Of a DNA stretch of 41,595 bases, positions 4,357 through 29,557 are shown one piece after another (position 1 is the first letter of the stretch; each line of letters starts with the position of its first letter). The notes under the pieces are model-generated. The model searched no databases. It saw only the letters and a program-made list of their open reading frames with translations, and was not told where the DNA came from. The stretch comes from a virus: positions 1 through 41,595 of the IMG/VR virus record IMGVR_UViG_3300009320_000042; one strand, 5' to 3'. The position numbers and the translations under genes were made by a program.

Positions 4357-4389
4357 AAAAAAGGATAGGAGTGTCTTTGAAGACACTCC
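4357..4389 (-). terminator. Terminator after the major capsid gene, built from the palindromic repeat
   Basis: On the minus strand the repeat forms GGAGTGTCT, loop TCAA, AGACACTCC (9 bp), then TATCC and six T. This is the only copy of the repeat that is followed by a T-run and so looks like an intrinsic terminator. Confidence 0.7.
4371..4386 (-). repeat. 16-bp palindrome, copy 1
   Basis: The core of the terminator after the major capsid gene. Confidence 0.95.
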
Positions 4390-4405
4390 CTCCCTTTATT
4401 GATTA

Positions 4406-15889: not shown

Positions 15890-16939
15890 CTAAGGAGTAC
15901 AGTTGGTAAAGTTAGGCTTAGGTTGTGTCCAATTAGGTTGTAAATTAGAAAACCCACCGCATTGTACAACATTGGCAACATTCCAACTACTTAAATTTTG
16001 ATTATAAACACCCGTAGAAGGACCTGAACATTGAAACATAGCTGACATATTAGTCACATTACTAACATTCCAAGAGCTTAAAGGTTGGTTAAATGATATT
16101 GCTCTTTCAAACATAAAAAACATATTAGTTACATTACTAACATTCCAAGAATTAAGCCATTGATTAAAATCACTTGCTGAACGAAACATATTACTCATAC
16201 TTGTAACGTTACTCACATCCCAATTACTAATATTCTGATTGAATGAAAAAGCACCTCTGAACATACTACCCAAATCTGTTGCACCGGATACATCCCAATT
16301 TCCTATAGGTTGATTAAAGTTATGTGCTGCCTCAAACATTCCATAAAAGGCAAACCCTACACCACTGCTCGTATTCCAAGAATTTAATGGAGAGTTAAAG
16401 GCATTAGCAGAAATGAACATAAAACCAAAGTCAGTAACACTACTTACGTCCCAAGAATCAATGTTTTGATTAAATGAAGTAGCAGAAGAGAACATAGACT
16501 GCATAGTAGTAACACTACTCACATCCCAATTGTTTAAAGGTCGGTTAAAAGAATTTTGTCGTTGGAACATACTCCTCATATTGGTGACATTGCTCACATC
16601 CCAATTTCCTATAGGTTGATTAAATGCTCCTCCACTTGAGTCCAATAAAAACATTTTATCCATATTGGTAACACTGCTCGTATCCCAATTTGAAATATTC
16701 CCATTAAAAGAATTTTTCCCCCTAAAGGCTTCAGACATATCAGTTACCTGACTAACATCCCAATTTTGAATCTTACCATAAGGCACAAGGTCGTAGTCCC
16801 CATTGGGGTCTTGTGCTAATATATCTGTAATTGCTTGGTTAAAAGTTGCGTCCGTCAAAGGGGTTGGTGGAGGCGGTGGGGTTGAAGATTGATTACCCGC
16901 CTCTAATCCTATTCCTATTCCTATTGCTATAGATGCCAT
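15890..16939 (-). CDS. BspA-like (DUF285) repeat surface protein
   Basis: A 349-aa protein. After a short N terminus and a proline linker (STPPPPPTPL, residues about 18-27), about eleven repeats of roughly 23-25 residues run to the end with consensus FNQ-I--WDVS-VT-M--MF. This is the BspA/DUF285 type of leucine-rich-like repeat found in Bacteroidota and Mycoplasma surface adhesins. No signal peptide or membrane anchor is seen, as expected for a virion protein. It is coupled (1 nt gap) to the spike-base-like gene. Binding to host surface or to other biological surfaces is inferred. Confidence 0.75.
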   Translation of the reverse strand: MASIAIGIGIGLEAGNQSSTPPPPPTPLTDATFNQAITDILAQDPNGDYDLVPYGKIQNWDVSQVTDMSEAFRGKNSFNGNISNWDTSSVTNMDKMFLLDSSGGAFNQPIGNWDVSNVTNMRSMFQRQNSFNRPLNNWDVSSVTTMQSMFSSATSFNQNIDSWDVSSVTDFGFMFISANAFNSPLNSWNTSSGVGFAFYGMFEAAHNFNQPIGNWDVSGATDLGSMFRGAFSFNQNISNWDVSNVTSMSNMFRSASDFNQWLNSWNVSNVTNMFFMFERAISFNQPLSSWNVSNVTNMSAMFQCSGPSTGVYNQNLSSWNVANVVQCGGFSNLQPNWTQPKPNFTNCTP

Positions 16940-17418: not shown

Positions 17419-18009
17419 TTATGCTTTTGTTACAACAATTCCTACTACTGCTTCAGATGTAGAAGAAGCAATACTTCCTGCTACTTCAATTCCTGCCATA
17501 GCAAACATAGTATTTGCAGGGAGTACTATATTTTGAGCACTTACGTCCTCAACAAATCCCGGTGCGGTGTTGTCGTCTGAATTGGTTAGCTCAGTAGTTA
17601 ACGAACCTATTTCAGTCCAAGTTCCTGCTTGGTTAGGGTCTGCTTTTAAATCTCCTGAACTGTAAAGATTAAATACATAATTAAAGTCTCCTGACGCACC
17701 CGTAATAATCTCAGCCATCTTGAAATAGATAGACTCAATTTTTACTGCGTAAGGGAAAATAATAGCTGAAGTCTGAGAAGTAGGTGATTGGATTCCTCCC
17801 CACTCTACAGTATCTCCATTAAAAGGAGCAGTACTACCTGCACCTAAGTTAATAATCTTTCCGTTGTACGAAATCTGTACAAGCTCTTTAAAATCTGCGG
17901 GAAATTCATATGCATCCCTTTGTGCATTTAGTTGAGCAGAGCCTTTGTTTTCTGTATCAACAAAAGATGCTACTCCGTGAAACTTTGTTCCTGTTGGTAT
18001 TGCTGCCAT
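17419..18009 (-). CDS. Virion surface protein with family-A N-terminal tag (196 aa)
   Basis: The first 35 residues (MAAIPTGTKFHGVASFVDT, then KGSAQLNAQRDAYEF) are shared with the proteins at 18791 and 20658. The body is unlike the others: beta-rich and Ala/Thr/Ser-rich, ending EAVVGIVVTKA. The common N terminus is probably a virion-docking or assembly tag and the body a display domain. It is 10 nt before the spike-base-like gene. Confidence 0.5.
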   Translation of the reverse strand: MAAIPTGTKFHGVASFVDTENKGSAQLNAQRDAYEFPADFKELVQISYNGKIINLGAGSTAPFNGDTVEWGGIQSPTSQTSAIIFPYAVKIESIYFKMAEIITGASGDFNYVFNLYSSGDLKADPNQAGTWTEIGSLTTELTNSDDNTAPGFVEDVSAQNIVLPANTMFAMAGIEVAGSIASSTSEAVVGIVVTKA

Positions 18010-25555: not shown

Positions 25556-26557
25556 ATGAGAAATTTATCAAACATCGGAGTAGAGTTCACTAACACCAAC
25601 GTTGAAGCACGTGGTGAAGTTCAATCCTACCACTGCAAACCAAGTCCAATCTTCCGCACCAAAGCACAACAGATGGACATCAATGGTCTTAAATCTGAAG
25701 ACCGCAGAAACATCATCATAGATGGTGACGAGTTCGAGAGCAAGTTCACAATCGGTTTCGAAATCGAGAAGTCACGTCTTCACAGAGGAAGTGTCCAAGA
25801 GTACCCACTATTCTGTGGGTTTGAGACCGATAGTTCTTGCGGATATGAAGCGGTGACACACGTTCTTCCATTGGTATCGAAGTCAATGTGGCGTACGAAA
25901 GTTTTCAATATGTTCGCTGAAGCGAAGTACATCATCGAGGATAGATATTCACCGAGTGACTATTCTTGTGGTGGTCACATCACAATCGGTGTCAATGGGA
26001 TGAGCGGTGTTGAGTTGATGAACAAAGTACGTGAGAATAGCGGTATCATCCTTTCTATATTCCGTAAGCGAATTATGAACAGATATTGTAGCGGTAACGT
26101 GATGATGACTGAGGATAGCAGTTCTTTCGGTGATAAGTACGTTGTTGCAAAGCCGAATAGCAATTCACTTGAGTTCCGTATTCCAAGCAGAGTTACATCA
26201 GTGAAGCAGTTGATGAGAAGATACGAGTTGATGTACGTTCTTCTTGACTTTTCAATCAACACACCGAATGCACGTAAATCAGTTCTGTACAATCGTTTGA
26301 AGCCAATCGTAGCATCAATGTACGAGCGTGATATGGACAAGGTTAATAAGATTATGGAGTTGGCAAAGCACTTTGACAAGTTCCTTAAAACCAAGAAAGT
26401 TGACCAAAACACTTGCGGTTGGCTTGAGGGTTGGTGGTCACGTAGCCGATGCAGAATGGGTGCAGTGAGAAGTTTGTACAAGCGTACCTACAGACCATTG
26501 CTATCACAAGCACACTATGTGAATGAGTTTATGTCCAAGTGGCAAGGGTTAGTGTGA
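25556..26557 (+). CDS. Amidoligase (COOH-NH2 ligase, glutamine-synthetase-like fold)
   Basis: A 333-aa protein. The motifs follow the Amidoligase_2 family (PF12224) in order: FTIGFEIE (64-71; family GvEiE), FETDSSCGYEAVTHVLPL (89-106; family D.S....E..t..L), CGGHITIGV (138-146; family GlHVhv) and LEFRIPS (205-211; family EfR). The acidic residues and His are the expected metal/ATP ligands of this GS-fold group, which forms amide bonds between a carboxylate and an amine. The C-terminal 120 residues are basic and helical. A hammerhead ribozyme lies just after the stop. Together with the GATase-GGCT fusion at 28409 it suggests a peptide or protein amidation pathway; the substrate is unknown. Confidence 0.75.
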   Translation: MRNLSNIGVEFTNTNVEARGEVQSYHCKPSPIFRTKAQQMDINGLKSEDRRNIIIDGDEFESKFTIGFEIEKSRLHRGSVQEYPLFCGFETDSSCGYEAVTHVLPLVSKSMWRTKVFNMFAEAKYIIEDRYSPSDYSCGGHITIGVNGMSGVELMNKVRENSGIILSIFRKRIMNRYCSGNVMMTEDSSSFGDKYVVAKPNSNSLEFRIPSRVTSVKQLMRRYELMYVLLDFSINTPNARKSVLYNRLKPIVASMYERDMDKVNKIMELAKHFDKFLKTKKVDQNTCGWLEGWWSRSRCRMGAVRSLYKRTYRPLLSQAHYVNEFMSKWQGLV

Positions 26558-26571
26558 GTGTTAATGGGGTA

Positions 26572-26587
26572 GTGTCTTCAAAGACAC
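26572..26587 (+). repeat. 16-bp palindrome, copy 6
   Basis: It forms the centre of a 12-bp hairpin with one bulge (26566-26577 with 26582-26594) that directly joins hammerhead 1. Confidence 0.95.
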
Positions 26588-26593
26588 TATCCC

Positions 26594-26642
26594 CTGTCCA
26601 CAGGTGAGTGCCTGTGCTGATGAGTCCAAAAGGACGAAACAG
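26594..26642 (+). ncRNA. Hammerhead ribozyme 1 (type III)
   Basis: The core CTGATGA (26617-26623) and GAAA (26636-26639) flank stem II GTCC/GGAC with an AAAA loop. Stem I is CACAGG (26599-26604) with CCTGTG (26611-26616) and a 6-nt loop. Stem III is CTGT (26594-26597) with ACAG (26639-26642). The predicted cleavage is after C17 at 26598. All conserved core nucleotides are present. It lies 37 nt after the amidoligase stop and 22 nt before the next ATG, so cleavage would separate the two messages. Confidence 0.92.
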
Positions 26643-26995: not shown

Positions 26996-27214
26996 ATGAG
27001 AAATTTATTTAACACAATCGAGAAATCAATCACAGCACTAATCGCAATCGGAGTACTATCTATGGCGTTACGTTTATTCATTCACATCGCTATGTCACAC
27101 GAGTTCGTGTGGTATCAGTGGGTATACATAGGTTTCGTTGCGTTGTTCTTGACGTTCATTAGTTGTCTAATCTTTGCTTTCATATTCCAAGCGTGGAAAG
27201 AGGATAGAGTGTAG
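26996..27214 (+). CDS. Small membrane protein, two TM segments
   Basis: A 72-aa protein with hydrophobic spans at about residues 12-32 (ITALIAIGVLSMALRLFIHI) and 42-64 (WVYIGFVALFLTFISCLIFA), then a charged tail (WKEDRV). The last base of its stop codon is the first base of hammerhead 2. A role in superinfection exclusion or host-membrane takeover is possible but not shown. Confidence 0.65.
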   Translation: MRNLFNTIEKSITALIAIGVLSMALRLFIHIAMSHEFVWYQWVYIGFVALFLTFISCLIFAFIFQAWKEDRV

Positions 27215-27277
27215 GCATACTGATGAGTTCTGATTGAACGAAAGGGTAGTGTCTTCAAAGACACTACTCTCTATGTC
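27214..27277 (+). ncRNA. Hammerhead ribozyme 2 (type I) with the palindrome as stem III
   Basis: Stem I is GGCATA (27214-27219) with TATGTC (27272-27277), 6 bp with one G-U. The core is CTGATGA (27220-27226), stem II GTTC/GAAC with loop TGATT, then GAAA (27240-27243). Stem III is 12 bp (27243-27254 with 27259-27270, one G-U) with loop TCAA and contains the 16-bp palindrome in full. Cleavage is predicted after C at 27271. All core positions are conserved. It separates the membrane gene from the gene at 27297. Confidence 0.93.
27249..27264 (+). repeat. 16-bp palindrome, copy 7
   Basis: GTGTCTTCAAAGACAC, forming the distal part of stem III of hammerhead 2. Confidence 0.95.
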
Positions 27278-27296: not shown

Positions 27297-27557
27297 ATGA
27301 AGTACACAAAACAATATTGGGATTGGAATAATTCCCAAGACGATTTACTGCTGATGCAATCAGCAATGAACGATTATGTTATTTACGACAAAGCAAACGA
27401 CAGAATGTTATGCTTTGGAAATGGTAACGTAATACTATTTGCAGACCGCAATGAAGCAGTTGAAGATTTGTATGGCAATGAAGTTGTGATGCAAGTCAAA
27501 GACTTATCAAACGAAAATCAATTAATAATTTTAAATCAAATTCAAAATGGAAAGTAA
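27297..27557 (+). CDS. Small protein (86 aa)
   Basis: MKYTKQYWDWNNSQDDLLLM, predicted alpha/beta. I chose the ATG at 27297 because the longer frame from 27234 would run through the ribozyme. Function unknown. It overlaps the next small gene by 11 nt. Confidence 0.6.
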   Translation: MKYTKQYWDWNNSQDDLLLMQSAMNDYVIYDKANDRMLCFGNGNVILFADRNEAVEDLYGNEVVMQVKDLSNENQLIILNQIQNGK

Positions 27558-27882: not shown

Positions 27883-27914
27883 TTTGGATATGTCTAATTT
27901 TTGTCGTATCTTTG
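27883..27914 (+). promoter_or_regulatory. Bacteroidota-type promoter
   Basis: TTTG at 27883-27886, a 20-nt spacer and TATCTTTG at 27907-27914. It drives the genes from 27979; palindrome copy 8 lies 28 nt after the -7 element, inside the 5' leader. Confidence 0.75.
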
Positions 27915-27941
27915 TTTAAAATTATATTAAATCAGAGGTCA

Positions 27942-27957
27942 GTGTCTTCAAAGACAC
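27942..27957 (+). repeat. 16-bp palindrome, copy 8
   Basis: Inside the leader of the gene at 27979 and part of a 38-nt block (27930-27967) identical to 28360-28397. Flanking GAGG/CCTC extends the hairpin with a 2-nt bulge. Confidence 0.95.
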
Positions 27958-27978
27958 TCCTCACAAAATTAAATCAAA

Positions 27979-28349: not shown

Positions 28350-28371
28350 ATCAAATATTAATCAGAGGTCA

Positions 28372-28387
28372 GTGTCTTCAAAGACAC
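28372..28387 (+). repeat. 16-bp palindrome, copy 9
   Basis: In the second copy of the 38-nt block (28360-28397), 21 nt before the GATase-GGCT ATG. Confidence 0.95.
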
Positions 28388-28408
28388 TCCTCACAAACAC
28401 TTAAATTT

Positions 28409-29476
28409 ATGTGCGTAATTATTATCAAACAGAAAGGCAAGGATGTGCCAAGAGAAGTTCTCAAAACATCCGCAAGAATCAATCCTCACGGATTGGGAAT
28501 CGTATGGCTCGACACGTTCGAGGTAACATACCACAAGTCCAAAGAGTATTCAACGCTCGATACAGACAGACCATACATCGCTCACTTTAGATATGCGACA
28601 ATCGGTAAGGTCTGCAAAGAGAACACACACCCTTTCGTGTGTGGGAAAAACAAAGACGAGTTGTTTATGATGAACGGTACAGTTCACGGTTACGGTAACA
28701 CCAATATGACCGACACCGAAGACTTGGCTATCAAGTTGGGCGACACCCCGAGACACACTTGGAAACAATCATTGGCAAAGTTCGAGGCAAGGTTTGTTGC
28801 AATCAACACCCGCAATCGTTCGTTCCAAATCTTCAACAAAGATTTGTTCACGTATCGTGATGGCGTATGGTACTCCAAAGACAACGTGCTACAGAGTAAT
28901 GTTGTGGCGGTGTATGGGACGCTCAAGAAAGGTTTCGGTAACTACTACTCCTACTTACGTAACGCCAAGCATCTTGGTCGAGGTCTGACCAAAGACAAGT
29001 ATCCACTAATAGTTCAAGGTCTTCCATACCTAATCGAAAAGAAAGGGAAGGGGACGAATGTGAAGGTCGATGTATTCAAAGTTGACAACACCACTATGCG
29101 AAAGTTGGATGCGTTGGAGGGACACCCTAATTGGTACGTGCGAAAGCAAATCCCTATCCGATTAAACGGCAAGGTTGTTACGGCTTGGATTTATTTCAAT
29201 CCTCGTGAAGAGAATAGTTGGAACGGCAGTAATCACGTGAAGTCGTACGAAAGACCATACACCCTACCGATATACCAAGAGGTAGAGGACGTGCAAGAAA
29301 GCATCGAAGAGCAAACGTGTACTCAATACGATATGTTTGACTACGAGTTTCCGACAGAGGAATCTCCGATATGTGTTGACTGCTTTCACGATTTGCAACA
29401 CGATGGGTTTGCTAACTACCATTGCAGTGGATGTGATGGATGGTTTACTGAAGAGGAAGTGCTACGCTTTTCGTAA
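28409..29476 (+). CDS. Class II glutamine amidotransferase fused to gamma-glutamylcyclotransferase and a zinc ribbon
   Basis: A 355-aa, three-domain protein. Residues 1-155 are a class II (Ntn) glutaminase: Cys2 nucleophile once Met is removed, NPHGLGIVW (25-33), HFRYATIG (59-66), NTHPF (72-76) and MNGTV (88-92). Residues 164-290 are a GGCT/AIG2-like domain: YGTLKKG (169-175) and the catalytic-type Glu in LDALEGHPNWYVR (Glu237). Residues 320-345 hold CVDC and CSGC, a zinc ribbon. The first domain would release ammonia from glutamine; the second acts on gamma-glutamyl bonds. With the amidoligase at 25556 it fits the amidoligase-GATase-AIG2 neighbourhoods described by Aravind and colleagues. 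A hammerhead lies 30 nt after the stop. Confidence 0.85.
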   Translation: MCVIIIKQKGKDVPREVLKTSARINPHGLGIVWLDTFEVTYHKSKEYSTLDTDRPYIAHFRYATIGKVCKENTHPFVCGKNKDELFMMNGTVHGYGNTNMTDTEDLAIKLGDTPRHTWKQSLAKFEARFVAINTRNRSFQIFNKDLFTYRDGVWYSKDNVLQSNVVAVYGTLKKGFGNYYSYLRNAKHLGRGLTKDKYPLIVQGLPYLIEKKGKGTNVKVDVFKVDNTTMRKLDALEGHPNWYVRKQIPIRLNGKVVTAWIYFNPREENSWNGSNHVKSYERPYTLPIYQEVEDVQESIEEQTCTQYDMFDYEFPTEESPICVDCFHDLQHDGFANYHCSGCDGWFTEEEVLRFS

Positions 29477-29487
29477 ACCGCATTGCA

Positions 29488-29503
29488 GTGTCTTCAAAGA
29501 CAC
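29488..29503 (+). repeat. 16-bp palindrome, copy 10
   Basis: Centre of a perfect 9-bp hairpin (29485-29493 with 29498-29506) that abuts hammerhead 3. Confidence 0.95.
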
Positions 29504-29506
29504 TGC

Positions 29507-29557
29507 TCTGTTCACGGATGTGTGTCCGTGCTGATGAAGTCAAAAGACAGAAACAGA
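29507..29557 (+). ncRNA. Hammerhead ribozyme 3 (type III, variant stem II)
   Basis: Stem III is TCTGT (29507-29511) with ACAGA (29553-29557). Cleavage is predicted after U17 at 29512. Stem I is CACGGA/TCCGTG with loop TGTGTG. The core CTGATGA (29531-29537) and GAAA (29550-29553) are intact. Stem II is GTC/GAC with loop AAAA, but its first pair (29538 and 29549) is A opposite A instead of G-C. The same architecture as hammerhead 1 argues for a shared origin. The mismatch may reduce activity. Confidence 0.8.

Follow-up and report, generated by a model that had tools for sequence, protein, structure and literature searches.

Hammerhead ribozymes joined to a palindromic repeat hairpin in a phage genome: a probable module for hairpin-capped mRNA 3′ ends

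Does the RNA that follows a small gene in this viral DNA fold into a hammerhead ribozyme, and what would a self-cleaving RNA do at the border between two phage genes? The role of hammerheads in prokaryotes is listed among the field's unsolved problems (PMC6155905). The stretch of DNA analyzed here, a 41.6-kb record of IMG/VR (41,595 nucleotides), is referred to as the window. Its primase matches those of Podoviridae sp. ctfjg026 (72% identity) and of Flavobacterium phages, and the host is therefore likely to be a member of the Bacteroidota. The small gene (26996–27214, plus strand) encodes a 72-aa probable small membrane protein. The last base of its stop codon (27212–27214) is at the same time the first base of the structure described below.

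The type I hammerhead occupies positions 27214–27277 of the plus strand and was delimited from the fold, an independent covariance model, shuffled controls and the ORF table. Stem I pairs GGCATA (27214–27219) with TATGTC (27272–27277) in 6 bp, one of them G-U, and in a wider fold it extends beyond an A/AA internal loop. The core elements CTGATGA and GAAA lie at 27220–27226 and 27240–27243. Stem II (27227–27230 with 27236–27239) has the 4 bp GTTC/GAAC and the loop TGATT. Sequence, repeat search and fold agree on stem III, a 12-bp hairpin at 27243–27270, in which 27243–27254 pair with 27259–27270 from A27243-U27270 inward and the loop UCAA (27255–27258) closes the end; a copy of a palindromic 16-mer repeat (27249–27264) makes up its outer part. 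All the core positions of the class are present, C3 U4 G5 A6 N7 G8 A9 ... G12 A13 A14, the A15.1-U16.1 pair and H17, as is the G10.1-C11.1 pair (G27227-C27239). Stems II and III are closed in the fold, stem I is open, and the pairing covaries in relatives. Position 17 is C27271, and the hammerhead rule applied to the sequence predicts cleavage between 27271 and 27272. The likely start at 27297 shares its reading frame with an ATG at 27273–27275, which forms part of the 3′ side of stem I. Stems I of the form GGCAWW/WWTGTC, G-U pair included, are also seen in the contigs L246, L197, L137, L202 and L216 and in Flavobacterium phage elemoF.

The minimum-energy fold of 27214–27277 is exactly the hammerhead structure (z = −4.1), and none of 200 shuffled sequences was as good. 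Searches were carried out with a hammerhead descriptor that specified the core, the nucleotide at position 17 and a minimum length for each stem. Run on 300 dinucleotide-shuffled versions of the window, it gave six matches of any kind and none with the 22 pairs found at 27214–27277. A covariance model, R1, was trained on 11 phage hammerheads of type I from other contigs, all devoid of the repeat and with 27214–27277 excluded. Its training alignment has both-sided changes in 14 of 16 pairs and 98.9% of the cells pair, a level reached in 0 of 500 shuffles; shifting the partner by one column lowers the pairing to 36–38%. Applied to the window, R1 finds 27214–27277 as its best match (49.9 bits, E = 1.6e-14). 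A MAFFT alignment of 24 type I sequences was discarded for the set of similar length used in R1, as its 3′ half was misaligned because stem III varies in length.

Orthologues carry the same structure in altered sequence. In L246, whose primase is 88% identical, the orthologue of the 72-aa gene likewise precedes a type I hammerhead, GGCATACTGATGAGGGTTGAATACCCGAAAGGTGGTGTCTTCAAAGACACTACCTCTATGTC, with GGGT/ACCC in stem II in place of GTTC/GAAC and with stem III re-paired. The L197 orthologue has a version of the repeat with a G-U pair, and stem III retains the repeat in both contigs. In L245, a stem I pair has changed from G-C to A-U, stem II is re-paired and stem III has a different sequence. 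The original prediction of a complete type I hammerhead at 27214–27277 is thus borne out in sequence and coordinates by the fold, the shuffles and R1, and so is its assignment of the palindromic repeat with the loop UCAA to stem III, which the compensatory changes in these three orthologues corroborate.

The search with the Rfam hammerhead models that had been proposed as a check went the other way. A scan of the window at the gathering threshold returned no match at all, and RF00163 gave none for 27214–27277 at E ≤ 10. In 11 related loci Rfam recovered only one of many hammerheads. Since it misses most of the covarying relatives, Rfam is not a usable negative here, and the miss at 27214–27277 is treated as a limit of the RF00163 model rather than as a failed structural feature. 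We regard 27214–27277 as a genuine type I hammerhead with predicted cleavage, one of three in an early/DNA-metabolism gene block.

The other two are of type III. A hammerhead with a canonical core at 26594–26642 (plus strand; predicted cleavage after C26598) matches RF00008 with E 1.3e-6, under the gathering score, and model R2, built from 40 type III sequences with the window's own copies excluded, with 72 bits (E 3.3e-21). An extended repeat hairpin of 12 bp (26566–26593, plus strand) abuts its 5′ side. The gene directly 5′ of this module (25556–26557, plus strand) encodes a 333-aa protein; its orthologues in relatives also precede hammerheads. Pfam and PHROG give no match to the protein, and by eye only it resembles phage amidoligases. 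The second type III hammerhead is a variant at 29508–29556 (plus strand; R2 70.5 bits, E 1e-20), with predicted cleavage after U29512, its position 17, and with A29538 and A29549 at 10.1 and 11.1 instead of the G-C pair. A 9-bp repeat hairpin (29485–29506, plus strand) lies directly 5′ of it. It follows a gene (28409–29476, plus strand) for a GGACT (gamma-glutamyl cyclotransferase) protein (Pfam PF06094, E 2.4e-22) with an additional weak match to class-II glutamine amidotransferases. The view that 29508–29556 is a decayed hammerhead was dropped, as the A.A variant recurs with compensatory stems in about 20 contigs. A check for intrinsic terminators on the plus strand at 26572, 27249 and 29488 found no terminator-like site, the U-tract being absent. 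At 4367–4390 of the minus strand, after a minus-strand structural gene, the repeat forms the stem of a terminator-like site (GGGAGTGTCTTCAAAGACACTCCT, ATCCTTTTTT) with a U-tract directly 3′ of the hairpin.

In related viral loci totaling 3.56 Mb, some of which were fetched by hammerhead or repeat patterns so that the sample is biased towards having hammerheads, 249 hammerheads were found, compared with two in total when the entire set was shuffled three times (about one expected). Genes outside annotated records were simple ORF calls. The hammerheads are intergenic in 238 of 249 cases, and in 222 of 234 the gene 5′ of the hammerhead shares its strand. The stop codon is separated from the hairpin or ribozyme by a median of 8.5 nt, and the next start codon follows at a median distance of 28 nt. 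Among contigs picked by primase alone, a hammerhead follows the 333-aa gene in 15 of 22 and the GGACT gene in 15 of 22; at each of these two best sites it is absent from about a third of the primase-anchored relatives. When the module was compared with named phages by BLAST, most matches were to enteric or Vibrio phages and attributable to chance, and a single one, to Cellulophaga phage phi18:3, was real. This phage has an unannotated type I hammerhead (NC_021794, 21904–21958, minus strand), and Flavobacterium phage elemoF (NC_055853) has an unannotated type III and a weaker type I hammerhead (17866–17920 and 16045–16102, both minus strand). L156 and L170 contain several type I hammerheads per contig (seven and four), mostly shortly 5′ of a start codon.

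Type III hammerheads are regularly preceded by a hairpin. One of at least 6 bp, no more than 8 nt upstream, was detected at 165 of 211 (78%), as against 9.7% in shuffles of the same 45 nt; by this definition the remaining 46 have none. In the primase-only contigs it is found at 44 of 48. After the 333-aa gene the hairpin is of the GTGTC type in 21 contigs and of unrelated sequence in 19, and it is therefore the hairpin that is kept rather than its sequence. A similar pairing of hairpin and hammerhead occurs in Patescibacteria genomes (L345–L416), where the type III core is frequent and a directly upstream hairpin of at least 6 bp was seen in 48 of 100.

What follows the hairpin is exchanged at orthologous sites. 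A tRNA-like minihelix stands there at the 333-aa gene site of L253 and L208 and at the GGACT site of L069 and L221. It consists of acceptor and T-arm with a TTCGA loop and is devoid of an anticodon arm (for example AGAGCGG...GAGGGGTTCGAGTCCCCTCCCGCTCT). Rfam gave no match to the elements of L253 and L208, and ARAGORN listed none of the tRNA-like elements in the loci tried. A U-tract follows the hairpin at the GGACT site of L280 and L260. After the 333-aa orthologue of L260, the hairpin is followed by a stable structured RNA, CTACCAACCTCCTGTCAGAAACGGCAGGGGGATTTGGTGGTAG, neither hammerhead nor tRNA-like, which is possibly another kind of cutter. RNase P presumably cuts at the tRNA-like minihelices of the relatives. 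The hammerhead, tRNA-like and U-tract versions would each place an RNA 3′ end just past the hairpin.

These results point to a module of hairpin and cutter that probably gives the upstream mRNA a hairpin-capped 3′ end and leaves transcription uninterrupted. A transcript would run through several genes, and the RNA directly after a stop codon would fold into a strong hairpin, in the window the palindromic repeat. The cutter linked to it would cleave just 3′ of the hairpin. The upstream mRNA, now ending in the hairpin with a 2′,3′-cyclic phosphate, would be shielded against 3′ exonucleases, and the downstream mRNA would have a 5′-OH end about 30–80 nt ahead of its start codon. The hairpin would stand in front of the ribozyme in type III modules and be stem III itself in those of type I; after cleavage the type I core would stay with the hairpin on the upstream RNA and the type III core on the downstream RNA. 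The computational basis of this proposal consists of the structures, their covariation, the intergenic position, the strand, the distance from the stop codon and the replacement of one cutter by another at orthologous sites. From these we infer cleavage in the infected cell and its stabilizing effect on the message.

The strength of the cutter may also be set by site. The 10.1-11.1 positions of the 211 type III hammerheads are G-C in 155, U.U in 36 and A.A in 20, with no other combination; the set includes one search for the A.A pattern itself, before which the counts were 147, 34 and 12. Position 17 is C in 127, A in 27 and U in one of the G-C class, A in 34 and U in two of the U.U class, and U in 14 and C in six of the A.A class. 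In primase-anchored contigs the 333-aa site has G-C in 15 of 15, while the GGACT site has A.A or U.U in 14 of 15. Perreault et al. 2011 (PMC3088659) describe a natural U10.1-U11.1 and report U-U as the best tolerated mismatch; no mention of A.A at these positions was found there. The A.A and U.U hammerheads may be slower ribozymes tuned by site. We tentatively extend the proposal to one hairpin with exchangeable cutters (hammerhead I or III, tRNA-like RNase P substrate, U-tract), with the ribozyme strength set by site and the mRNAs separated gene by gene at different times. The canonical G-C form after the 333-aa gene and the A.A or U.U form, read as attenuated, after the GGACT gene would fit such timing, which we consider possible rather than probable.

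Since the ribozymes lie close to the next start codon, a role at the 5′ end is possible. The ribozyme might serve mainly the downstream gene, its 5′-OH leader setting mRNA stability or translation and the hairpin being only a spacer or folding insulator. The short distance to the start codons (the median given above) and the stem I hairpin with which the downstream mRNA would start after type III cleavage agree with such a role. However, the type I ribozyme and its hairpin would remain on the upstream RNA, so that the two forms have a 3′ hairpin and not a 5′ structure in common, and where a tRNA-like element or a U-tract takes the ribozyme's place, the hairpin side is all that is shared. A role mainly for the downstream gene is unlikely. 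Formation of the 3′ end is preferred over a 5′-leader role because every version would leave the upstream mRNA with a 3′-terminal hairpin.

The repeat itself raises a different question. The window has 16 exact copies, where 0.45 matches would be expected by chance even allowing three mismatches. In 13 of them there is no hammerhead, and about seven lie in coding frames (11503, 22997, 30120, 31104, 32903, 37013 and 38235); the related loci contain 157 coding copies without a hammerhead, in both orientations. Could the 16-mer be bound as DNA by a phage regulator or by a protein of replication or packaging, and serve as a ribozyme stem only incidentally? An exact palindrome with so many copies, many of them coding, would suit such a site. 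Yet read along the transcription as TTCAAA:TTTGAA, the intergenic copies are strongly oriented (134:19) compared with the coding ones (57:38; Fisher p 9e-7). The repeat is prolonged by extra pairing, G-U pairs included, of 4.1–4.9 bp in front of a hammerhead and 0.8 within coding sequence, and beside hammerheads unrelated hairpins substitute for it. An incidental use of a DNA site is accordingly improbable, and a DNA operator as the sole explanation is ruled out by the orientation bias and the flank pairing. A DNA-site role may still exist alongside the RNA role. A 3′-end role makes no sense for copies inside coding frames, which suggest a further DNA or RNA role beyond the 3′-end model. The predicted tie between the repeat family and ribozyme function therefore stands in part: it holds for many copies in relatives and, among the 16 in the window, for three, but many copies are coding, one in the window is terminator-like, and unrelated hairpins can replace the repeat.

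A repeat in the opposite orientation lies about 610–640 nt 5′ of the primase in the window (33859) and in L242 (4997), L246 (8268), L248 (9389) and L249 (9372). At 27930–27967 and 28360–28397 of the window, the repeat is embedded in one and the same 38-nt sequence. The first copy is preceded at 27907 by a Bacteroidota-type promoter-like sequence, TATCTTTG, and its hairpin may therefore be located in a 5′ leader. In L314, after the GGACT orthologue, one repeat hairpin appears to sit in the loop of another, as if inserted.

That a mobile element of the retrozyme or satellite kind has left the motifs behind, as relics or as marks of its transposition and with no role in mRNA, is scarcely credible: the repeat is dispersed genome-wide and hammerheads elsewhere mark retrozymes (PMC4918200 and PMC7761336), but here the sequences differ strongly, with compensatory changes, and stand at orthologous borders between genes, and the hammerheads are not embedded in any longer element common to them.

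A close precedent is found in the prophage hammerhead clusters of Perreault et al. 2011 (PMC3088659), in which, as here, several hammerheads flank single genes. Hammerhead processing of long phage transcripts is already proposed there, and cleavage is described in vitro and in E. coli; the word 'terminator' is absent from the text, and an adjoining hairpin is not described in the portion consulted. What is added here is the hairpin next to the ribozyme and the replacement of one cutter by another, as judged against open papers, and an account may exist elsewhere. The 5′ hairpin, its replacement and the ribozyme swaps give bacterial hammerheads one concrete, testable role, a protected 3′ end. 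If the module is read correctly, separate end-protected messages would arise from one long transcript. The cultured phages phi18:3 and elemoF bear related hammerheads, and the idea is thus testable in laboratory hosts.

With type I hammerheads of RF00163, 27214–27277 has in common the core, the three stems, the permutation and the cleavage position, predicted in the window. It differs in escaping the Rfam model, in a stem III formed by a phage-wide palindromic repeat and in a short stem I of 6 bp. The RF00008 type III family is matched by 26594–26642, under gathering; unlike it, the type III hammerheads of the window are preceded by the repeat hairpin, and the copy at 29508 has A.A at 10.1-11.1. 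In the mammalian MALAT1/mascRNA system, RNase P makes a 3′ end next to a tRNA-like structure. The four relatives with a tRNA-like minihelix after the hairpin at an orthologous site resemble this arrangement, with RNase P as the putative enzyme, whereas the cutter of the window is a hammerhead. With intrinsic terminators and REP-type 3′ protective hairpins the module shares a strong hairpin right past the stop codon; in contrast to terminators, the hammerhead sites are devoid of a U-tract, and their 3′ end would come from the ribozyme cut.
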